Assembly: GCA_023819145.1 (NCBI GenBank)
Contig: JAMWCW010000013.1
Coordinates: 1 to 39,372, forward strand
DNA: 39,372 nucleotides
Direction of reading: 5' to 3'
From: Candidatus Omnitrophota bacterium
Lineage (GTDB): Bacteria; Omnitrophota; Gorgyraeia; DTHP01
Shown here: in pieces, positions 27,202 to 39,186 of the stretch
How the letters are laid out: every line of letters starts with the position of its first letter
How positions within the stretch are numbered: position 1 is the stretch's first letter
Program-made: the position numbers and the translations under genes
Notes under the pieces: model-generated
Database searches by the model: none
Told to the model about the DNA's origin: nothing
Seen by the model: only the letters and a program-made list of their open reading frames with translations

Positions 27202-27212
27202 GGGAGACAAAA

Positions 27213-29012
27213 ATGAGAAAATTTTTCGTTTTGCTTATCTCTATTTTATTCCTGTATTTCCTTTTTGGTTTCAAGAAAAATGTTCAAAAGCCAAATGTTA
27301 TTTTAATCACTATAGATTCTCTGCGTCCTGACCATCTTGGCTGTTACGGATATCATAGAAATACCTCACCCAACATTGATAAGTTGGCAAGAGAAGGGGT
27401 TATTTTTAAAAATGTTATTGCCCAATCCAATCATACCTCCTCTTCTTTACCTTCCATAATGACCTCTACTTATTTACACACACATCGTGTTTATGATTAT
27501 GGCTATGATTTAGATAAGAATTTATCCACTTTGGCAGAGATTATGAAGGCAAATGGTTATCAAACCTGGTCCTGGATAGGAAATAGGGATATTCTTACAG
27601 GGGCAAACTATTTAGAACATGGATTTGATGTACAAGAGAGTTTCACTGTTAAAGAAAGTAGAAAGATAATCTATGGAGTAATAGAAAAAATAAAAGCAAA
27701 TTATAAAAAAAGTCCAATTTTTCTCTGGGTCCATTATTTTGATACCCATGCTCCTTATGATGTTCCTGAACCTTATCCCTCCTTTTTTCCTTATTATGAT
27801 ATAGTAAATATTCCTATTTTATCTTCTACCTCTGAACGGCCAGAAGATTATGAAGGGAGAGGAGGAATCCCCGGCTATGTTGCTGAGTTTGGAATTACCA
27901 ATGTAGATTATTATATTGCTAAATATGACCGAGCGATAAATTATGTAGATGCTCAGATTGGCTTATTGACAGAGACTTTGGAGAAATTAAGATTAGATAA
28001 TCGTACACTTATTATTATAACTGCTGACCACGGTGAATTTCTTGGAGAGCACAACATTTTCTTTTCCCATGTGATTCCCATGTTTGATGAAGTAATTAAG
28101 GTTCCCTTAATTATAAAATACAAAGGGAGGCTTCCAGAGAATAGAGTAATAGAGACCCAGGTAGAAACCATAGATATTATGCCCACAATCTTAGATTTAG
28201 TAGGGATAAAAAAACCCCCTTATATTCAAGGGGTTAACCTTTTTTCTTTTTTTAGGAAATTTAAAAAATATGCGCTTAGTGAAAATGGAAAGAAAGGAGT
28301 GTTTCACTATTGTATACGAACGAATGGTTGGAAATTACTTTCGCGAGATATTAATCGTGATATATTAAGACTTGTGAGATTTGAGGATATTTTGAATGAG
28401 TATAATTTTATGGTGGTGGATAAGAAAGAGTTTAAAAACATAATTAGTTCTCGTAAACGCATAAATGAAGATTTGGCTTTAAACAAAGAAAAGATTTCTC
28501 CGCTTCTTAAATGGATTGCGCAAGAGAATATGCCTATACTGTGGTTTCATAATTGTGAAAATTCTCAAGAGTGTTTACAGAATTTTTATGAGAATATATA
28601 TCTTACTGATCTGGATTATTGTTTATATTTAAACAAATTCAGGACAGAATTTCCTTACTCCTCAAGTGAAATAGAGATACTCTTGGAGGAAGCAGATAAA
28701 TTATCCTCTGATAAGGTAATTGCATTTTTACTTACAGCTAAGAAAGAGAGAAATATTTCAGATATTGCAGAGAATGGTAACTGGTATAAATTATATCAGG
28801 GGTTTTTTGTGGGCCCTAAGTGGTATGCCTTGTTTAATCTTAAGGAAGACCCTAAGGAAAAACAAAATTTATTCTATCTCGAAGAAAAGGTAAGGTTCTT
28901 AGAAAAAAAATATATTTCTCTGGTTAAAAAATCGAAAAAATTCAGGTCTATCAAAATAAATTTAGATAAGGAGACAAAAGAGAGATTAAAGGGATTAGGT
29001 TATCTGCAATAA
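27213..29012 (+). CDS. Sulfatase-fold (alkaline phosphatase superfamily) enzyme with inserted region
   Basis: The N-terminal hydrophobic stretch (about residues 3-20, no lipobox) is a signal anchor or signal peptide. The sulfatase core starts NVILITIDSLRPDHLGCYGY (metal Asp35) and carries the second metal motif ITADHGEFLGEH (about 269-280). The usual formylglycine motif CxPxR is absent; the aligned nucleophile position is Thr75 in HTSSSLPSIMTS. The enzyme may therefore be a phosphodiesterase or transferase rather than a true sulfatase. Residues ~376-535 are an insert absent from the close paralogue at 33627. It ends RLKGLGYLQ, the usual close of this subfamily. RBS AGGGAGA lies before the ATG. 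Confidence 0.83.
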   Translation: MRKFFVLLISILFLYFLFGFKKNVQKPNVILITIDSLRPDHLGCYGYHRNTSPNIDKLAREGVIFKNVIAQSNHTSSSLPSIMTSTYLHTHRVYDYGYDLDKNLSTLAEIMKANGYQTWSWIGNRDILTGANYLEHGFDVQESFTVKESRKIIYGVIEKIKANYKKSPIFLWVHYFDTHAPYDVPEPYPSFFPYYDIVNIPILSSTSERPEDYEGRGGIPGYVAEFGITNVDYYIAKYDRAINYVDAQIGLLTETLEKLRLDNRTLIIITADHGEFLGEHNIFFSHVIPMFDEVIKVPLIIKYKGRLPENRVIETQVETIDIMPTILDLVGIKKPPYIQGVNLFSFFRKFKKYALSENGKKGVFHYCIRTNGWKLLSRDINRDILRLVRFEDILNEYNFMVVDKKEFKNIISSRKRINEDLALNKEKISPLLKWIAQENMPILWFHNCENSQECLQNFYENIYLTDLDYCLYLNKFRTEFPYSSSEIEILLEEADKLSSDKVIAFLLTAKKERNISDIAENGNWYKLYQGFFVGPKWYALFNLKEDPKEKQNLFYLEEKVRFLEKKYISLVKKSKKFRSIKINLDKETKERLKGLGYLQ

Positions 29013-29057
29013 AAAAATTTTGGGTTCAATTATTTTGGATGAACTAGAAAGTCAAAG

Positions 29058-29096
29058 TAATTTGACAAAACAGGACAGTCCTTTATTGTAAAATTA
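29058..29096. repeat. 39-bp REP-like palindrome, copy 1
   Basis: The outer arms TAATTTGACAA and TTGTAAAATTA pair with one mismatch. The centre AGGAC-A-GTCCT is a perfect small hairpin, separated from the arms by 3-base unpaired spacers (AAC/TTA). It lies between the 27213 gene and the truncated TauE-like gene, whose homology begins at its right edge. It is the same element as the copies at 33589, 34984 and 35899. Confidence 0.88.
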
Positions 29097-29104
29097 CATC
29101 AGCG

Positions 29105-29560
29105 GTGAGTATTATTTTACTAATTATGGGAAGTTTAATTCTTAAGAATTTTATCTTTAAAAATAGAGAGATGAATAAAGAAATAAAATCATATTCAAAA
29201 AATAAACTTAAAATTTTAGGTTTTTTTGCCGGTTTTATTGATGCTATTGGTGGAGGGGGATGGGGTCCAATATATACCTCTACCCTTGTGGTTGGAGGAA
29301 CAGAACCTAACAAAGTAGTGGGTTCGGTTAATTTTGCTAAGTTTTTTGTTGCATTGGTGATGAGCTTTACATTTTTATCTCTTTTAAAGCCTGAAAATTT
29401 TCGCTGGGATATCGTCTTAGCGCTTTCCATAGGAGGAATTATTTCAGATCCTTTTGCCGCCTACATCTGTAATAAACTTCCAAAGCGTATTTTGGGGATT
29501 TTGGTAAGATTAATGGTAATCATTTTAAGCATATGGAGACTCTTAAGATGTCAGATTTAG
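29105..29560 (+). pseudogene. TauE/SafE-family anion exporter, N-terminal half missing
   Basis: The 151 residues carry one membrane helix and then the C-terminal half of a TauE/SafE permease: LGFFAGFIDAIGGGGWGPIY, followed by VGGTEPNKVVGSVNFAKFFV and two further helices. Family members are usually about 250 residues with two such halves, and here the first half is gone. The frame stays open upstream through ITSAVSII into the 39-bp palindrome at 29058-29096, where a TGA closes it, so the break coincides with the repeat. The only start is a GTG at 29105 with no good RBS. It may be a remnant, or a half-size protein. It overlaps cysD, consistent with a former sulfur-assimilation operon. Confidence 0.68.
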
Positions 29561-30354
29561 ATGAACTGGAGAACCAGAGTATTTTTATAATTCGTGAAGC
29601 ATACTGGCGGTATCGGGCTAAGTTAGCGGTTTTATGGAGCTGTGGTAAAGATTCTACTACTATGCTTTATTTAATCAGAAAAGCTTTTTTAGGAGATATT
29701 CCTCTTTCGGTAATTCATATTGATACCAGTTTTAAATTTAAAGAAATTTACAAATTTAGAGATAATTTAGTAAAGAAATGGCATCTGAAATTGATTGTGG
29801 CAAAAAATGAACTGGCTCTGAAAGAAGGGATGTCTCCAGAAAAAGGAAGATTTGAATGCTGTAATGCCTTAAAGACAGAAGCCCTGAAACAGACCATTAA
29901 AAAATATGGCTTTCAGGCTCTATTTCTTGCTATAAGAAGAGACGAACACGCAATTAGAGCCAAAGAGAGATTCTGGTCTCCTCGGGATAAAGATTTTAAA
30001 TGGGATTATCAAAACCAGCCCTTAGAGATGTGGGCAGAATTTTCTAAGGCAAAGGAAGAAAATGAGATACATTTTCGCATTCATCCTCTGCTTTCTTGGA
30101 GGGAAATTGATATCTGGGGATATATAAAAAGAGAAAAAATTCCCATAATAAATTTATATTTTGCGAAAAAAGGTAAAAGATATAGAAGTATTGGTTGTGA
30201 ACCATGCTGTGAACCAGTGCCTTCAGAGGCTAATACCATTGATAAAATTATTAAAGAGCTTGAAGAGACAAAAATTGCTGAAAGAACAGGACGTGCTCAG
30301 GATAAAGAGAAAGCCTATATGATGCAGAAATTGAGGACCTTAGGATATATGTAG
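29533..30354 (+). CDS. cysD: CysD-like sulfate adenylyltransferase subunit 2
   Basis: This is a PP-loop ATP pyrophosphatase that makes adenosine 5'-phosphosulfate (APS) from ATP and sulfate with CysN. The PP-loop reads LWSCGKDSTTML (about residues 35-46), a Cys variant of SGGKDS. Later motifs are the RRDEHAIRAKERFWSPRD stretch, HPLLSWREIDIWGYIKRE, RYRSIGCEPC and the C-terminal ERTGRAQDKEK, all typical of CysD rather than PAPS reductase. The 273 residues are near the usual length. It overlaps the TauE-like remnant by 28 bases and is followed by cysN. No cysC or cysH is in the window. Confidence 0.88.
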   Translation: METLKMSDLDELENQSIFIIREAYWRYRAKLAVLWSCGKDSTTMLYLIRKAFLGDIPLSVIHIDTSFKFKEIYKFRDNLVKKWHLKLIVAKNELALKEGMSPEKGRFECCNALKTEALKQTIKKYGFQALFLAIRRDEHAIRAKERFWSPRDKDFKWDYQNQPLEMWAEFSKAKEENEIHFRIHPLLSWREIDIWGYIKREKIPIINLYFAKKGKRYRSIGCEPCCEPVPSEANTIDKIIKELEETKIAERTGRAQDKEKAYMMQKLRTLGYM

Positions 30355-30401
30355 GTATTGAAGAAATATGGTTTGATGAACACAGATAAATAGAGTAGTA
30401 A

Positions 30402-31598
30402 ATGATAAAGATAGTATTTTTGGGAGAGTTGGATTGTGGTAAATCCACACTCATCGGTAGACTTTTATATGATACGGATTCTATTCCTCAGGAGGTAAAA
30501 GAGGAATTTTTGAAAATCTCACAGCAATATGGCAGAGAGTTAGAATTCGCATATCTATTAGACAGTTTTGAGGAAGAAAGAAGAGGAGAATTTACCTTAG
30601 ATACTACTCAGGTTTTTATAAACTATAAAGATAAAGAATACTTATTAATAGATGTTCCCGGGCATAAGGAACTCATAAAGAATATGCTTACAGGGACTTC
30701 CTATGCAAATTATGCGCTTTTAGTTTCTGATGTAGAAAAACCCTTGGAAGAACAGACAAAGAGACATATTTACCTTTTGAAATTTTTAGGAATAAAAAAT
30801 TTTATTATCGTGATTAACAAAATGGATAAATTAGGATTTAATGAATTGTCTTTTAACAAAGCGGTAAGAGAGATAGGAAGTTTTCTGACAGAAATGGATT
30901 TAAATCCATTAGAAATTATCCCCGTTTCTGCTAAAGAAGGAGAAAATGTAGTATCCATCTCTTCTAAGATGGACTGGTATAAAGGAATGACTTTAATTGA
31001 GGCAATGGGTAATTTAACTACAGAGATTGATGAAGATAAGGATTTACGCTTTTTAGTTCAGGACATTTATTATCGTGGTAAAGAAGAGATAGTCTTGGGC
31101 CGAATTGTTTCTGGAAAACTAAGGGTTAGAGATAAGATAAGAATAGTTCCCGAGGGATGGGAAAGTAGAGTCAGGAAAATAGTTGTTTTTGGAAAAAATA
31201 AAAAAGAGGCAAAGGCTAAGGAAAGCATTGGACTGATTTTAGATAAAAAAGGATTAAAAAGGGGAAATATTATTTATAAAAAGATACCGCCCAATATTGC
31301 TTCTGAATTTAGGGTAAAGATTTTTTGTTTACTTCCTTTTAGAGAAAATGATGAATTTAGAATTAAAATTAATGTTCAAGAAAGCAACTGTTATATAATA
31401 AAAATAAATGAGGTTATAGAAACAGATTCCTTTAAAAAGAGATTTTCTACTGCAGTCAGGGCTACAGATGTTGCCGAGATTTTTTTAAAAACCGATAAGC
31501 CTTTGGTAATAGAAAATTTTTATAAGACAGAAGAATTGGGGAGATTTATTCTCTATAAAAATGGAGAAATTTTTACAGTGGGAATAATCCCTGAATAA
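30402..31598 (+). CDS. cysN: CysN-like GTPase, sulfate adenylyltransferase subunit 1
   Basis: This EF-Tu-like GTPase activates CysD for APS formation. Motifs are G1 GELDCGKST (about residues 8-16), a switch I of the type EERRGEFTLDTTQ, G3 DVPGHKE, and G4 NKMD, followed by two beta-barrel domains. The 398 residues are shorter than E. coli CysN (about 475), and no fused CysC kinase domain is present. It follows cysD after 47 bases in which I see no gene. APS could feed sulfation of the glycan after phosphorylation by a CysC encoded elsewhere. Confidence 0.86.
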   Translation: MIKIVFLGELDCGKSTLIGRLLYDTDSIPQEVKEEFLKISQQYGRELEFAYLLDSFEEERRGEFTLDTTQVFINYKDKEYLLIDVPGHKELIKNMLTGTSYANYALLVSDVEKPLEEQTKRHIYLLKFLGIKNFIIVINKMDKLGFNELSFNKAVREIGSFLTEMDLNPLEIIPVSAKEGENVVSISSKMDWYKGMTLIEAMGNLTTEIDEDKDLRFLVQDIYYRGKEEIVLGRIVSGKLRVRDKIRIVPEGWESRVRKIVVFGKNKKEAKAKESIGLILDKKGLKRGNIIYKKIPPNIASEFRVKIFCLLPFRENDEFRIKINVQESNCYIIKINEVIETDSFKKRFSTAVRATDVAEIFLKTDKPLVIENFYKTEELGRFILYKNGEIFTVGIIPE

Positions 31599-31614
31599 GT
31601 AGCAATTTATAAAT

Positions 31615-33630
31615 ATGTTTCTCTATATTGATCCAGGGTCAGGATTTCCTTTTCTTACCGGTGCATCGTTTTTTTGGGCAATCCTTTTGGGATTTTTTGG
31701 TTTTCTTCTTTTATTCATTAAGCAATTTTTTAGATGGTTTAAAAAATTTTGGTGGATAATTATTTTTTTAATAATTATTTTTTTTCTATTAAAGTTTAAA
31801 GGAGAGGAAAGGATGAAGAAAAAAATAATCATTTTGGGGATAGATGCCATGGACCCTAAGATAACTGAGGGGTTAATTAGTGAAGGCAAATTACCCAATT
31901 TTTCTAAACTCAAAGATATGGGAAGTTATTCAAGATTAAAAACCACGGTTCCTGCGGAATCTATAGTTTGCTGGACTTCTTTTTCTACAGGGTCAAATCC
32001 TGGCGGACATGGAATATTTGATTTCATTATGCGCGACCCCAAGACTTATATTCCTTACCTTTCTTTAAATGAGGTTAAGGAAGAAAGATGGCTTTTATTC
32101 AAAAAACTTAAGATAGAAAATCGCAATAAAGGTAAAAATTTTTGGGAAATTCTCTCTGAAAAAAATGTTCCTTGTCAAATTTATTTCTGCCCCAATACTT
32201 TTCCCGCAAAGCCACTTAAAGGCACAATGCTTTCGGGGATGGGCGTTCCCGATTTATATGGAGTTATCGGGAGATTTTCTTTTTATACCACAAAGCCTCT
32301 TTTAGATGAAGATAAGGAAACAAGGGGTAAGGTTATCCCTGTAGAGGTAAAAAATAATTCTATTAATACCTTTATCTATGGTCCGCGTATGAGGTCAGGA
32401 GAAGAAAATAAAATTCCTCTTAAAATAAGATTTTTATCAGAAAATATGATTGAAATCAATTTACAGGGAGGGAAGGTTATACTTAAGGAAAAAGAATGGA
32501 GTCAGTGGCAGAGAGTTTACTTTAAAACTGGCTTATTTAGTAAAACCTATGGAATAATTAGATTTTATTTAGGAAGTATAGAGCCAGAATTTGCTTTATA
32601 TATGAGTCCAATAAATTTTGACCCCTGTAGTTCTATTTTTCCAATCTCTTATCCTAAAAATTATGCCAAAAAATTGGTAAAAAGAATTGGTTTTTATTAT
32701 ACCCAGGGTATGCCACACGATACCTGGGCGCTAACTGAGGATAGATTTGATGAGGAGGCATTTTTAGCACATGTAGATATTATTTTAGGAGAACGAAAAA
32801 GAATCCTAATAGAGGAGCTTAAGAGATTTAAAAAAGGTGTATTTTTCTTTTATTTTGATACCCTGGATGCAATTCAACATATGTTCTGGAGATATATTGA
32901 TAAAAAACATCCGCTTTATGAAGAAAATTCTAAATACAAGGAGGTGATTTTTTATTATTATAAAAAAATAGATGAGATTTTAGGTGAGGTTATGGAGATG
33001 ATGGGAGAGGAAACAAATTTGATTATTTTTTCTGACCATGGATTTGGGCCTTTTCGCAAAACGGTTAATCTGAATCGCTGGCTTTTGGAAGAAGGTTATT
33101 TGGTTTTAAAAGAAGGTTTTTCTGAAGGGAAAGAATTTTTTGAGAATGTGGATTGGACAAGAACACGTGCCTATGCTTTGGGATTTGGTGGAATATATTT
33201 GAATAAAACAGGAAGAGAAAAAATGGGGATAGTAAAAAAAGAAGAGGAATGGGTATTAAAGAAAGAGATTTCTAAAAAACTGGGAAATTGGCATGACCCA
33301 AAGACTGGAGAGAGGGTAATAAGTAAAGTTTATCTAAATGAAGAAATTTTTTCTGGGCTATACGCTCATGAAGGGCCTGATTTGTTTGTAGGAACCAATT
33401 CTGGATACCGTGTCTCTTGGAAGACCGCTTTGGGTATAGTTCCTCAGGATTTAATTGAAGATAATTTTAAGAAATGGAGTGGTGACCATTTAATTGACCC
33501 GGAGTTAGTTCCAGGAGTGATTTTTATCAATAAGAAGGTTGAACTAAACCAACCTCATATTACCGACATAATTTCTAATTTGATAAATAATTTTGACAAA
33601 ATAGGACAGTCCTTAATTGTAAAATTATGA
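31615..33630 (+). CDS. Membrane-anchored type I phosphodiesterase/pyrophosphatase-fold protein
   Basis: Residues 1-~62 start with the YIDPGSG motif known from small bacterial membrane proteins, followed by two hydrophobic spans. The alkaline-phosphatase-superfamily core then begins IIILGIDAMDP (metal Asp77). The nucleophile is probably Ser116 in VPAESIVCWTSFSTG, with the family motif NPGGHGIFDF next and FSDHGFGPFRKTVNL later. A second ATG at 31813 has a much better Shine-Dalgarno (GGAGAGGAAAGG at 31801-31812) and would give the soluble catalytic part alone. The last ~13 residues (FDKIGQSLIVKL) are encoded by the 39-bp palindrome. Substrate is unknown; phospho- or sulfo-glycan is possible. Confidence 0.8.
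   Translation: MFLYIDPGSGFPFLTGASFFWAILLGFFGFLLLFIKQFFRWFKKFWWIIIFLIIIFFLLKFKGEERMKKKIIILGIDAMDPKITEGLISEGKLPNFSKLKDMGSYSRLKTTVPAESIVCWTSFSTGSNPGGHGIFDFIMRDPKTYIPYLSLNEVKEERWLLFKKLKIENRNKGKNFWEILSEKNVPCQIYFCPNTFPAKPLKGTMLSGMGVPDLYGVIGRFSFYTTKPLLDEDKETRGKVIPVEVKNNSINTFIYGPRMRSGEENKIPLKIRFLSENMIEINLQGGKVILKEKEWSQWQRVYFKTGLFSKTYGIIRFYLGSIEPEFALYMSPINFDPCSSIFPISYPKNYAKKLVKRIGFYYTQGMPHDTWALTEDRFDEEAFLAHVDIILGERKRILIEELKRFKKGVFFFYFDTLDAIQHMFWRYIDKKHPLYEENSKYKEVIFYYYKKIDEILGEVMEMMGEETNLIIFSDHGFGPFRKTVNLNRWLLEEGYLVLKEGFSEGKEFFENVDWTRTRAYALGFGGIYLNKTGREKMGIVKKEEEWVLKKEISKKLGNWHDPKTGERVISKVYLNEEIFSGLYAHEGPDLFVGTNSGYRVSWKTALGIVPQDLIEDNFKKWSGDHLIDPELVPGVIFINKKVELNQPHITDIISNLINNFDKIGQSLIVKL
33589..33627. 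repeat. 39-bp REP-like palindrome, copy 2
   Basis: The centre AGGAC-A-GTCCT is flanked by spacers AAT/TAA and arms AATTTTGACAA and TTGTAAAATTA. It lies inside the 3' end of the 31615 gene, and its last base is the first base of the ATG of the 33627 gene. Bases 33592-33632 are identical to 35902-35942 over 41 positions. Confidence 0.9.
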
Positions 33631-34979
33631 AGTTTAAAATTATTGTACTATTTCTTCTTTTACTTTTTGGAAATACTCCTCGGATTCGGCCTTCACAGCC
33701 TAAGAGACTAAATGTGATTCTCATTACCGTAGACTCCCTAAGACCAGACCACTTGGGTTGCTATGGGTATAAAAGAAATACCTCACCCAATATTGATAGA
33801 TTAGCAAATGAAGGAGTGGTATTTACTCAGGCTATTGCTCAAGGACCTGCCACCATTCCCTCATTACCTTCCTTATTTTATTCCAATTATTTTAGAAGCG
33901 GAGACTGGGGTAAAGATTTGGCTGATGTAAAAGAAGTTGATATTTCTTTCTCTAATCTGGCAGAAATCTTGAGAACTAATGGATATTTTACTGTTTTTAT
34001 CTGTGCTCATTCAGTTATACCGGAGATAAAGGCTTTTCAGAAGGGATGGGATAATTTAATAAAATTTAAAAATAGGAAACCCAATGCTAAAATAGTTACT
34101 CAAAAAGCTATAGAGTTTATAAAGAGATCCGGTAACCAACCGTTCTTTGTCTGGATTCATTATATGGATGCCCATGCTCCTTATATAGTGCCTTATAAAT
34201 ATAAAAAATTATTTATTGGAGACAAATTTTATTTACCTCCTAAGAGGGTTAGCATAGTAAATAACAAAGAAGGAAGGGGTGGTATTTATAAGCCTTTGGT
34301 TTATAAAGGAATCACGGATCTAAGCTATTATATTGCTCAATACGACGCTGCTATAAAGTATATTGATGACCAGATATGGTTAATTATTAAAGAATTGTTC
34401 AGATTCGGCTTAGAAAATAATACATTAATAATCATAACCGCAGACCATGGAGAAGCCTTTGGAGAACATGGTTTCTTTTTAGTTCATAGTTATGCCTTAT
34501 TTGATGAATTCATAAAGGTTCCTCTAATTATAAAGATACCTTCCGTAACCCTTGGAGGGAAAATAATTGACAAGCAGGTTCAACTTGTGGATATAGTTCC
34601 TACTATTTTAGATATTTTGAAAATCGATAATAATTATAAAATGGAAGGGATTAGTCTTTTACCGTTGATTTTTACAGGAGAAGGATATAATAGAGAATAT
34701 GCTTTTAGTACAGCGGGAATAATGAGTTGTATAAGAACTTCGGGGTGGAAATTGATACTTTATGAAGACACGCAAAGAGGGAATAGTTATTTTTTGTTTA
34801 ACTTGAAAAAGGATAAGGATGAGTTAGTAAATTTAATGGGTTTTAGAAATAACCAATTTGAATTTCTAAGACAAATATTGGATAATTGTTTGAAGAGAGT
34901 TAGTTTTGATTTTATTGTAGGCAATTCATTGGATAGAGGAGTAAAGGAAAGATTAAAAAGTTTAGGGTATGTTCAATAA
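33627..34979 (+). CDS. Sulfatase-fold (alkaline phosphatase superfamily) enzyme
   Basis: A 450-residue paralogue of the 27213 protein. It has a hydrophobic N-terminus (about 4-15), NVILITVDSLRPDHLGCYGY (metal Asp36), ITADHGEAFGEH and the terminal RLKSLGYVQ. No CxPxR formylglycine motif exists; GPATIPSLPSLFYSN places Thr76 at the nucleophile position, as in Thr-type members of the superfamily. It is compact where the paralogue carries a ~150-residue insert. The start codon overlaps the end of palindrome copy 2 and the upstream stop (ATGA), with no visible RBS. It is probably periplasmic and acts on a sulfated or phosphorylated glycan (inference). Confidence 0.83.
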   Translation: MKFKIIVLFLLLLFGNTPRIRPSQPKRLNVILITVDSLRPDHLGCYGYKRNTSPNIDRLANEGVVFTQAIAQGPATIPSLPSLFYSNYFRSGDWGKDLADVKEVDISFSNLAEILRTNGYFTVFICAHSVIPEIKAFQKGWDNLIKFKNRKPNAKIVTQKAIEFIKRSGNQPFFVWIHYMDAHAPYIVPYKYKKLFIGDKFYLPPKRVSIVNNKEGRGGIYKPLVYKGITDLSYYIAQYDAAIKYIDDQIWLIIKELFRFGLENNTLIIITADHGEAFGEHGFFLVHSYALFDEFIKVPLIIKIPSVTLGGKIIDKQVQLVDIVPTILDILKIDNNYKMEGISLLPLIFTGEGYNREYAFSTAGIMSCIRTSGWKLILYEDTQRGNSYFLFNLKKDKDELVNLMGFRNNQFEFLRQILDNCLKRVSFDFIVGNSLDRGVKERLKSLGYVQ

Positions 34980-34983
34980 AGTA

Positions 34984-35022
34984 TAATTTTACAAAACAGG
35001 ACTGTCCTTAATTGTAAAATTA
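34984..35022. repeat. 39-bp REP-like palindrome, copy 3 (perfect arms)
   Basis: The arms TAATTTTACAA and TTGTAAAATTA are exact reverse complements. The centre is AGGAC-T-GTCCT, and the two 3-base spacers (AAC/TAA) would form a symmetric internal loop. It lies one base before the ATG of the RAYT gene and five bases after the stop of the sulfatase-fold gene. Confidence 0.92.
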
Positions 35023-35023
35023 G

Positions 35024-35914
35024 ATGGATAATTTGAATTTGATAGAGGAAGGAAAGATTAAACGGTATTTCAATTTGAAATATAGAATTATTTATCCTGA
35101 GGCAATTTATCATATAACCCAACGTGCTCCAGGGATGGAGCAGATATTTTTGGAGCGTGCTGACTATTTATATATGCTCCATCTGCTTAAGGAAAAATCA
35201 AGGGAATTTAAGTTAGATGTCTATGCTTATGCTTTCCTTCCCAACCATATACATCTTTTATTAAAGATTACTGAACCCAATTTAAGTAAGGCTCTTAAGA
35301 ATATTTTTGAAACCTATGCCATATATTTTAATAAAAAATATCAGAGAAAAGGGCATGTTTTTTGTGGCAGATTTAGAGCTTCATTATGTTTAGACGAAGC
35401 TTATTTTCTTGTTGCCTCACTTTACATCCATCTCAATCCTTATAAAGCTGGTTTAGCCCAAGAACCTGATAAATATCCTTGGTCCTCTTGTTCGTTATAT
35501 ACACAGCTTGGATCAAAGAAATCATTTATAAAGACAGAGATTATACTTAATTTATTGAACGAAGAGGAAAATGAAGCAAAAAAGAGATATTTTGAGTTAA
35601 TTTTAGAGGGAATGGGTTTAGAGATGGAGAATATTTTTGAAAATCCCAAGGTTGTAATCTCTTTGAGAAATAGACTATCTAAGAAAATTAAAGATTTGGC
35701 TAGATTAATTATGAAAAACGATTTATTTGTTGATGAAGATTTAAAAGAAGAAATCCAAAAATTTCAGAAAAAGAAAAAGATAAAAACACCTGAAGAATTG
35801 AACGCAAGAAAGTATCTGATTAAGCAACTTTTTAATAGAGGGTTTAGCATTTCCGAGATTGCTGAGAAATTGGGTAAGACAAGGCAGAGTATTTATTACA
35901 ATTTGACAAAATAG
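35024..35914 (+). CDS. REP-associated tyrosine transposase (Y1/HUH, IS200-like)
   Basis: Residues ~15-155 form a Y1_Tnp domain. The HUH motif HIH is at 75-77 (FLPNHIHLLLK), followed by GHVFCGRFRA and the catalytic Tyr segment SLYIHLNPYKAG (probably Tyr134), then YPWSS. Members cut and join single-stranded DNA at REP hairpins. A C-terminal extension to 296 residues is charged and ends in a helix-turn-helix, FSISEIAEKLGKTRQSIYYN, that could help recognise the repeat. The TAG stop lies within palindrome copy 4 and the ATG is one base after copy 3. No Shine-Dalgarno is visible, so expression is probably low. Confidence 0.88.
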   Translation: MDNLNLIEEGKIKRYFNLKYRIIYPEAIYHITQRAPGMEQIFLERADYLYMLHLLKEKSREFKLDVYAYAFLPNHIHLLLKITEPNLSKALKNIFETYAIYFNKKYQRKGHVFCGRFRASLCLDEAYFLVASLYIHLNPYKAGLAQEPDKYPWSSCSLYTQLGSKKSFIKTEIILNLLNEEENEAKKRYFELILEGMGLEMENIFENPKVVISLRNRLSKKIKDLARLIMKNDLFVDEDLKEEIQKFQKKKKIKTPEELNARKYLIKQLFNRGFSISEIAEKLGKTRQSIYYNLTK

Positions 35915-35937
35915 GACAGTCCTTAATTGTAAAATTA
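35899..35937. repeat. 39-bp REP-like palindrome, copy 4
   Basis: Arms CAATTTGACAA and TTGTAAAATTA, spacers AAT/TAA, centre AGGAC-A-GTCCT. It supplies the RAYT stop codon and ends on the first base of the ATG at 35937. It is identical to copy 2 over 41 bases, including the following TGAAG. Confidence 0.9.
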
Positions 35938-37406
35938 TGAAGATAGTTTTGGCAAATTCTATTGGAAAAGATAAAAATGGTTTTTATATAATACACTCTC
36001 CTTCACGCTGGTCAGAAGGGGTTAAGTCTTTGTATAACTGGTTTGCCTATTACCCCTGGGAATTGGCTTATACCTCTTCACTTCTAAAGAGAGAAACAAA
36101 TCATAAAGTTAAATTAGTTGACGGTTGCCTGGAGAGATTTGATTTAGAAAACTATTATAGAAAGATATTACAGGAAAAGCCAAATTGGTTAATTATGGAA
36201 TCCGCTACAAGGATGATTGAAGAAAATTTAGAATTGGCTATAAAGATTAAAAAAAAATTAGGGACAAAGATTGTTTTTGTTGGTCAGCATGCTTCAGCAT
36301 TTCCAGAAGAATTAATCAATAAAGGAGTAGATTATGTTTGTATTGGCGAATACGAATTAACGGTTTTAGAACTATTACAAGGTAAAGACCCTAAAAATAT
36401 TTTAGGGCTTTACCAAAATCCCAGAAGACCCCTCTTAGATATAAATTATTTACCTTTTCCTGAAGATGAAGATGTTAGGCGTATTGATTACGGTATCCCT
36501 GGAGAGCCATCTTCAGAATATATAGAGATTCAGATGTATGCTTCTCGTGGATGCCCCAGGTCTTGCAATTTTTGTGTAGCAAGGAATATTTATTATGCTC
36601 AAGCTAACTGGCGTCCCAGAAAAATTGAGAATATAATTTCTGAAATAAAATATTTAAAAAATAGATATCATCAAATGGAGGGAATATTTTTTGATGAAGA
36701 GGTGCATAATGTAAATAGAGATTTTGTATTGAATTTATGCCAGGCAATAAAAGAGAATGGTTTAAATAAACTTCATTATGAGGCGATGTGCGATATCTGG
36801 TTTATGGATGAAGAGGTGCTTGAGGCAATGCGTGAAGCGGGATATTATAAGATTAGATTTGGCATTGAAACTGCAAGCGAAGCAGTTGCTAATGGAATTA
36901 ATAAACAATTAGACTTGAAAAAGTTATTCCTTTTGCTTAACCGAGCAAAGGAAATAGGTTTTAAAAACTACGGAACATTTATGTTTGGTGCATGGAATTC
37001 TACAAAAGAGAACGATTTAGAGACTATAGACCTAATGAAGAGATTAATTATTAATGGTCTTCTTGATAATACCCAGATTTCTATCTGCACACCCCAACCT
37101 GGGACAAAATTCTATAGATTGGTAAAGGAAAAAGGTTATTTGGTAGAAAATGATTATTCTAAATTTGATGGAGGAAATTTCAGTGTAGTAAGTTATCCAA
37201 AATATAAAAAGGAAGAAATTGAAGAAATAAAAAATTTAGCCTTGAAAATAAGAGACCATTTATATTTTGTCTATCGCTTTAAAACTTGCTTATGGCTTAA
37301 TTGGCTAATTTATATATGGAAAAAATACGGATTTTGGAAAACAACTAAAAAAATCTTTATCCGTTTTTTGAAGGAACTTAACTTTTTATGGCAAAAATTT
37401 CAATAA
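35937..37406 (+). CDS. B12-binding-type radical SAM protein
   Basis: The N-terminal cobalamin-type domain has SPSRWSEGVKSL and YPWELAYTSSLL, similar in layout to residues ~300-340 of the 16760 protein, then VGQHASAFPEE and CIGEYELTVLEL. No DxHxxG is seen. The radical SAM core has CX3CX2C at Cys206, Cys210 and Cys213 (ASRGCPRSCNFC), then FFDEEVHN, RFGIETASEAVANGINK and FMFGAWNSTKEND. At 489 residues it lacks the extra domain of the 16760 protein. It starts on the last base of palindrome copy 4 and overlaps the downstream GT2 by 19 bases. Confidence 0.86.
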   Translation: MKIVLANSIGKDKNGFYIIHSPSRWSEGVKSLYNWFAYYPWELAYTSSLLKRETNHKVKLVDGCLERFDLENYYRKILQEKPNWLIMESATRMIEENLELAIKIKKKLGTKIVFVGQHASAFPEELINKGVDYVCIGEYELTVLELLQGKDPKNILGLYQNPRRPLLDINYLPFPEDEDVRRIDYGIPGEPSSEYIEIQMYASRGCPRSCNFCVARNIYYAQANWRPRKIENIISEIKYLKNRYHQMEGIFFDEEVHNVNRDFVLNLCQAIKENGLNKLHYEAMCDIWFMDEEVLEAMREAGYYKIRFGIETASEAVANGINKQLDLKKLFLLLNRAKEIGFKNYGTFMFGAWNSTKENDLETIDLMKRLIINGLLDNTQISICTPQPGTKFYRLVKEKGYLVENDYSKFDGGNFSVVSYPKYKKEEIEEIKNLALKIRDHLYFVYRFKTCLWLNWLIYIWKKYGFWKTTKKIFIRFLKELNFLWQKFQ

Positions 37407-38503: not shown

Positions 38504-38809
38504 ATGAAAGTTAAATTCAAACAAATAAAAATTTACGCTGAAAAAATAAAAGAGAAGTTTAGCCCCAAAAAGATTATTCTCTTTGGTTCTTATGCATCGG
38601 GTAAAATAACTAAAGATAGCGATGTGGATTTACTCATAATAATAGATACTAAAATAAGATCTATTAATCAGGCGGTCTTGATAAGAAAAGAAATCCCCTC
38701 GCCTTTTCCTTTAGATTTAATAGTTAAAACACCCGATGAGGTAAAGGAAAGAATTAAAAAGGGAGATTTCTTCATGAAAACAATCGTGAAAAAGGGAAAA
38801 CATTTATGA
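38504..38809 (+). CDS. mntA: MNT-type minimal nucleotidyltransferase (antitoxin)
   Basis: A 101-residue minimal nucleotidyltransferase. The motif IILFGSYASGKITKDSDVDL has the GS...(D/S)xD pattern of the polymerase-beta superfamily, with Gly28-Ser29 and the metal pair Asp40/Asp42. In known pairs the MntA antitoxin adds AMP to its HEPN partner and silences it. AAGAAGAG precedes the ATG at good spacing. It overlaps the HEPN gene by four bases (ATGA). The MNT-first order is common in such pairs. Assignment to the toxin-antitoxin class rests on this pairing. Confidence 0.86.
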   Translation: MKVKFKQIKIYAEKIKEKFSPKKIILFGSYASGKITKDSDVDLLIIIDTKIRSINQAVLIRKEIPSPFPLDLIVKTPDEVKERIKKGDFFMKTIVKKGKHL

Positions 38810-39186
38810 AGGAAATAACCAAAGAATGGATTAAAAAAGCTGAAGAGGATTATAGAGTCGCGATTAGAGAATTTAAAGCCAAACCCCTGGCATGTTATGC
38901 AGTATGCTTTCATAGTCAGCAATGTATAGAGAAATATATGAAGGCTATATTACAGGAGAATAATGTATCTTTTGAGAAAATACACGATTTAGAGATTCTT
39001 CTTAGTGACTGCAAAAAATTTACTCCTTCTTTAGAAAATTATAGAGAAGAATTAATCTGGCTTACCACATTTGCTGTAGAAGTTCGCTATCCTGGTTTTG
39101 AGATTAATAAAATAGATGCAGAGAAAGCTATAAATTTTATGAGAAAAATAAGGAGAATCTTGAGGGGCTACTTTAAAGAAAAATAA
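38806..39186 (+). CDS. hepT: HEPN-domain protein (probable toxin of an MNT-HEPN pair)
   Basis: The 126 residues are all-helical with the COG2250-type HEPN pattern: WIKKAEEDYRVA at the start, CYAVCFHSQQCIEKYMKAIL (about 30-49), KIHDLEILL, and VEVRYPGFEI near the end. The classical RX4-6H RNase motif of HepT is not obvious; Arg94-Tyr95-Pro96 occupies that region, as in many COG2250 proteins, so RNase activity is uncertain. It is coupled to the MNT gene by an ATGA overlap. It ends 19 bases inside the convergent membrane-protein gene on the other strand. Confidence 0.84.
   Translation: MKEITKEWIKKAEEDYRVAIREFKAKPLACYAVCFHSQQCIEKYMKAILQENNVSFEKIHDLEILLSDCKKFTPSLENYREELIWLTTFAVEVRYPGFEINKIDAEKAINFMRKIRRILRGYFKEK

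Follow-up and report, generated by a model that had tools for sequence, protein, structure and literature searches.

Palindromes and RAYT gene in the window

The DNA analysed here, referred to as the window, is a 39,372-nt stretch of contig JAMWCW010000013.1 from a Candidatus Omnitrophota bacterium. It carries four copies of a palindromic element, two of which flank a gene for a RAYT-like transposase, and the features relevant to the analysis are the following.

27202-35896, plus strand: 8.7-kb block absent from a paralogous segment on contig C8 of the same genome; its right boundary is at most 3 bases from the left edge of copy 4
29058-29096, plus strand: element copy 1; its right edge adjoins a TauE/SafE gene without the N-terminal ~97 residues
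33589-33627, plus strand: element copy 2, traversed by the 3' end of a phosphodiesterase ORF; its last base is the first of the next ATG
34984-35022, plus strand: element copy 3, whose arms are perfect; it flanks the RAYT gene on the upstream side, the start codon lying 1 nt past the element
35024-35914, plus strand: RAYT-like Y1/HUH transposase with H75-x-H77, Y134...N138 and a C-terminal HTH_23-like segment at about residues 262-291
35899-35937, plus strand: element copy 4, which flanks the RAYT gene on the downstream side and includes its stop codon; the ATG of a radical SAM (rSAM) gene starts at the element's last base

Each element is 39 nt long and consists of an 11-nt arm, a 3-nt internal loop and a 5-bp core around one central base, followed by the mirror image. 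The window contains exactly four matches to the core, AGGACWGTCCT (at 29072, 33603, 34998 and 35913), and allowing one mismatch adds none; the number expected from shuffled sequence is 0.25, and none of 100 shuffles reached four. These data bear out the original prediction of four two-tier palindromes with a common architecture, all on the plus strand and with no counterpart elsewhere in the window. Copy 3, for which perfect arms had also been correctly claimed, has a predicted DNA fold of -8.1 kcal/mol (z -4.2), while copies 1, 2 and 4 contain one or two arm mismatches and fold more weakly (-4.8 to -5.5 kcal/mol, z -1.75 to -2.3). Copies 2 and 4 are indeed identical over 41 bases (33592-33632 and 35902-35942), although the final few of these bases (TGAAG) are the start of the next gene; the recent copying or gene conversion proposed from this identity is compatible with the data but not proven by them. 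In the 1.5-Mb genome (31 contigs) the core is present five times, compared with zero for a reversed-pattern control, the fifth copy being located at C8:10839-10877. With only five copies, current activity of this subfamily is unproven.

The 35024-35914 ORF matches Y1_Tnp (PF01797) with 35.6 bits against a cut-off of 23, and its product retains H75, H77, Y134 and N138, which make up the HxH motif, the one catalytic tyrosine and the Y---N signature. The score against the NCBIfam equivalog NF047646 (61.4 bits) lies under the cut-off of 80, which makes the protein a divergent relative rather than the NCBI equivalog. The best C-terminal match is to HTH_23 (residues 262-291, E 0.0011), under the curated cut-off, a threshold that the same domain exceeds in a homologue (L104). 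The AlphaFold2 model of the protein has a mean pLDDT of 84.6, and its best match in the PDB is 4er8, the Escherichia coli RAYT in complex with a REP hairpin (E 2.9e-7), followed by IS608 and ISDra2. The Y1 match, the catalytic residues, the HTH_23-like segment and the predicted fold together argue that the gene probably encodes an intact RAYT-type enzyme with an additional HTH.

Elsewhere in the window, two ORFs at 29533-31598 appear CysD/CysN-like (sulfate activation) from their translations and lie beside two sulfatases and the phosphodiesterase. Two small ORFs at 38504-39186 read as a putative pair of MNT-like nucleotidyltransferase and HEPN-like protein, a common toxin-antitoxin arrangement.

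Palindromes at the flanks of other RAYT genes

Contigs were searched with seven RAYTs as queries and 80 loci were kept; the scored set comprised 59 of these and the two loci of the window's own genome, 61 in all, mostly from Omnitrophota and deltaproteobacterial lineages. A 39-nt palindrome was sought within ~200 nt of the gene ends. One passing the score was found upstream at 48 of the 61 loci and downstream at 42, compared with 5% of random places, and thus the predicted linkage of the elements to RAYT genes extends across phyla. In these related bacteria the palindrome-RAYT-palindrome arrangement is kept while the hairpin sequences differ. An alignment of 50 elements has only C9 and G31 invariant, with A10, T30 and T32 nearly so, showing that it is the architecture that is conserved and not the sequence.

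Within a locus, by contrast, identity between the flanking copies is 92% (48% between loci), and for 25 of 27 upstream copies the nearest sequence is the downstream partner at the same locus. Core divergence displays a small correlation with Y1-domain divergence (Mantel rho 0.26, p 0.001), and arm divergence none. In partial Mantel tests of the HTH against the element the core gave a weak signal (0.12, p 0.047); those for the whole element and the arms were not significant. Among 35 scorable loci with both flanks passing, 21 pairs favoured the direct orientation and 11 the inverted, with 3 ties. The 11 that favoured inversion are mostly near-perfect palindromes with small margins, and strongly asymmetric pairs are direct.

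The window's genome encodes a second RAYT (C2:79585-80466), 44% identical to the first. Its flanking elements have outer arms of the same kind as those in the window (AATTTNACA / TGTAAAATT) and a different core (AAGTTCAACTT). This subfamily has members at 79580, 80468, 84792 and 89423, all on the strand of the RAYT, so that two copies lie beyond the flanks, at distances of 4.3 and 9 kb. Upstream ORFs extend into these elements as they do in the window, and at three of the four an ATG follows after a few bases.

Solo copies, gene junctions and rearrangements

A covariance model was built from 50 RAYT-flanking elements and searched in 39 relatives, with both strands counted. At E<=0.001, at least ten matches were found only in G000 (the window's own genome), G012, G013 and G016, all of which encode full-length homologues of the window RAYT; G016 and G013 belong to the same class as the window's organism. 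G018, the fifth genome with a full-length homologue, has matches just above the cut. Three other genomes gave one or two matches and the remaining 31 none; these 31 include all eight genomes in which the homology search had found no counterpart of the window RAYT. The hypergeometric probability of this distribution (four of five genomes versus three of 34) is ~0.002, although elements from these genomes went into the model, making the association partly circular for flanking copies and less so for solo ones. The elements are therefore not a genome-wide motif that is common without RAYTs: relatives do contain core matches, but these lack the arms, and matches to the full model concentrate in RAYT-bearing genomes, at most one or two occurring where a full-length RAYT of this kind is absent.

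Solo copies are scattered at gene junctions in the RAYT-bearing genomes, at ~35 places in the richest relative, and are nearly absent from the others. Of 72 copies located between two called genes, 67 have co-directional neighbours; four more copies lie inside called ORFs. Outside G012, 33 of 49 upstream stop codons fall inside the element or no more than 15 nt short of it, and 14 of the 49 are exactly the element's own TAA. G012 carries head-to-tail tandem arrays that repeat every 41-45 nt, and at 14 of 16 loci there the elements point the same way with respect to the genes (two-sided p 0.004). The junctions are unrelated to one another, and the gene contexts rule out a conserved regulator site upstream of orthologous genes. 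G012 contains ~30 copies of one palindrome subfamily (L204-L223), some in tandem arrays.

Several loci carry signs of movement. A RlmN-rSAM-RsmF operon is present in two Omnitrophota with RAYTs that are mutual closest relatives in the set (53%), yet the RAYT gene follows rSAM and precedes RsmF in L076, and in L095 it is located ahead of RlmN. In two further species (L074 and L085) the RAYT shares one junction, downstream of threonine synthase, and each locus has three elements; the elements are alike within a species and different between the two, a sequence pattern that looks like concerted evolution.

Positions 18039-38268 of the window and C8:1-13211 are diverged paralogous segments, 71-87% identical in pieces, which contain glycan-type genes (radical SAM/B12 proteins and glycosyltransferases). 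The 8.7-kb block is absent from the C8 segment, and homology resumes within 3 bases of the left edge of copy 4. The TauE protein at copy 1 matches only positions 98-235 of the 237-position profile. Both breakpoints, the resumption of C8 homology and the TauE truncation, fall at element edges. No empty site was found at nucleotide resolution; for the G016 family the search yielded one other genome, which was too diverged.

Candidate explanations and relation to known repeat systems

Very probably, the HTH-tailed RAYT whose gene lies between copies 3 and 4 has the 39-nt palindromes as its cognate substrate repeats. The Y1 domain would recognize a folded single strand, in which the core hairpin stands over the 11-bp stem with the 3-nt internal loop between them, cut at or near the hairpin foot through Tyr134 and rejoin the strands. 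Such activity could copy single elements to new sites, move an element-RAYT-element unit or cause occasional deletions and rearrangements that stop on one side at an element edge; insertions would survive mainly at gene junctions. The HTH may bind the duplex or contribute to autoregulation. Several observations count against this explanation: no cognate RAYT for the abundant G012 subfamily was found in that assembly, the search for empty sites and for a shared flanking tetranucleotide came up negative, the window subfamily numbers only five copies, and the correlation between core and Y1 domain is small.

Other roles for the palindromes can be envisaged. They might be duplex operators through which the RAYT, by means of its HTH, or a different regulator controls adjacent genes, as their palindromic sequence, the HTH-like segment of the protein and the location of copy 3 directly 5' of the RAYT start codon would suggest. 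An operator, however, has no need of a two-tier hairpin with an internal loop, nor would it be expected in tandem arrays, as in G012, or between unrelated co-directional genes, often overlapping the 3' end of the upstream ORF; as a general account we consider it very unlikely, although copy 3 could serve as the RAYT's own operator, which is compatible with the substrate explanation. An RNA function under selection at gene junctions (terminator, 3'-end stabilizer or translational coupler), with the RAYT incidental, is more improbable still. It would explain the placement at junctions, the orientation bias at the G012 loci and the frequent use of the element's TAA as the upstream stop codon, but junction placement could equally come from purging of intragenic insertions, and RAYT flanks are matched at most loci across phyla with locus-specific sequences. 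In addition, no T-run follows the window copies, ruling out intrinsic terminators.

Movement of gene cassettes is a less remote prospect, though still unlikely. Segments between direct copies would here travel with neighbouring genes, like composite transposon ends acting through single strands, and the direct orientation, the division of the region into blocks by the four copies, the end of the 8.7-kb difference at an element edge and the truncated TauE next to copy 1 all fit such a process. Conversely, no block was found to have moved as a unit elsewhere, the genes between copies in G016 are housekeeping operons (for example ATP synthase and pilus genes), and the C8 case is explained by element-adjacent deletion. 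A bolder form of the idea, to which we give a similarly low standing, is that the transposase reads the palindrome in two forms, as a duplex through the HTH and as a folded single strand through the HUH domain. Direct palindromes might then act as universal ends, so that any block between two copies could be excised or inserted, a single-strand counterpart of gene cassettes.

If the palindromes are substrates of the RAYT, their nearest known counterparts can be sought among published Y1 systems. The original prediction that they are REP elements of the RAYT holds for the RAYT link, evident from the recurrence of the arrangement in other phyla, the second RAYT and the covariation of element sequence with locus, but fails for canonical REPs. 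These have a GT[AG]G foot (PMC6006769, PMC8266576), a motif found at only 1 of 182 and 3 of 178 element feet, against a background of 4%, which rules out a canonical GTAG REP. As in REP/RAYT systems (REPtron, REPIN; TnpAREP), each RAYT is flanked by palindromes of a family specific to it, 20-40 nt long and with further members scattered between genes, and the catalytic fold is that of 4er8. The differences include copy number, as canonical REPs typically exceed 100 per genome and the window subfamily has five members; furthermore, clustered copies follow one another head-to-tail instead of alternating or forming inverted pairs, flanking pairs are mostly direct and the enzyme carries the extra HTH. 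The IS200/IS605 elements IS608 and ISDra2 similarly combine a Y1/HUH catalytic domain with hairpins in one orientation at both ends. In contrast to these elements, the window's genome has one RAYT copy per subfamily and solo hairpins away from the gene. No conserved tetranucleotide was found beside the palindromes; the copies in G012, G013, G016 and G000 have no shared left flank, and the eight copies in G040 have a constant A there.

A closer parallel is provided by TIRYTs (TIRtrons), RAYT relatives with terminal inverted repeats that often, but not universally, contain GGGGWSAS (Di Nocera 2013, PMC3733652). Most belong to TnpAY1 subclass 2.1, which has a C-terminal HTH (HTH_23, HTH_28 or Bac_DnaA_C) and near whose genes a survey reported no REP-like sequences (Quentin 2018, PMC6006769). 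Both groups combine a Y1/HUH domain and an HTH_23-like C-terminus with a repeat-flanked gene, and in both the genome holds further, moderately repeated families, some of them self-complementary. The repeats described here differ in being a fixed 39-nt two-tier palindrome that is mostly direct, and GGGGWSAS is absent from the window elements. Set beside the published descriptions, the elements are best read as the cognate repeats that go with a group of HTH-tailed RAYTs, of which TIRYT/TnpAY1 subclass 2.1 is the nearest known relative, which points to an undescribed relative of REP/RAYT mobile repeats; on these features the group is filed as a variant of the RAYT/TIRYT kind. If it belongs to subclass 2.1, the palindromes would be the missing substrates of HTH-tailed Y1 genes. 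They offer testable element-enzyme pairs, including two from a single genome whose cores differ, with which substrate choice by Y1 enzymes and the origin of REP-like repeats could be studied. A search of the open-licence literature on Omnitrophota and Velamenicoccus transposases found nothing, and no report of such repeats was found there for these phyla, of which Omnitrophota is poorly known. A further Y1 gene of the window's genome, at C1:216177 (L006, C1:214701-218027), is flanked by AAAAGGGGCCAGACCCCTTTT / ATTAAAAGGGGTCTGACCCCTTTTAAT, which resemble the GGGG-type repeats of TIRYTs, and thus repeats of the AAAAGGGGCCAGACCCCTTTT type and 39-nt palindromes coexist in one genome.
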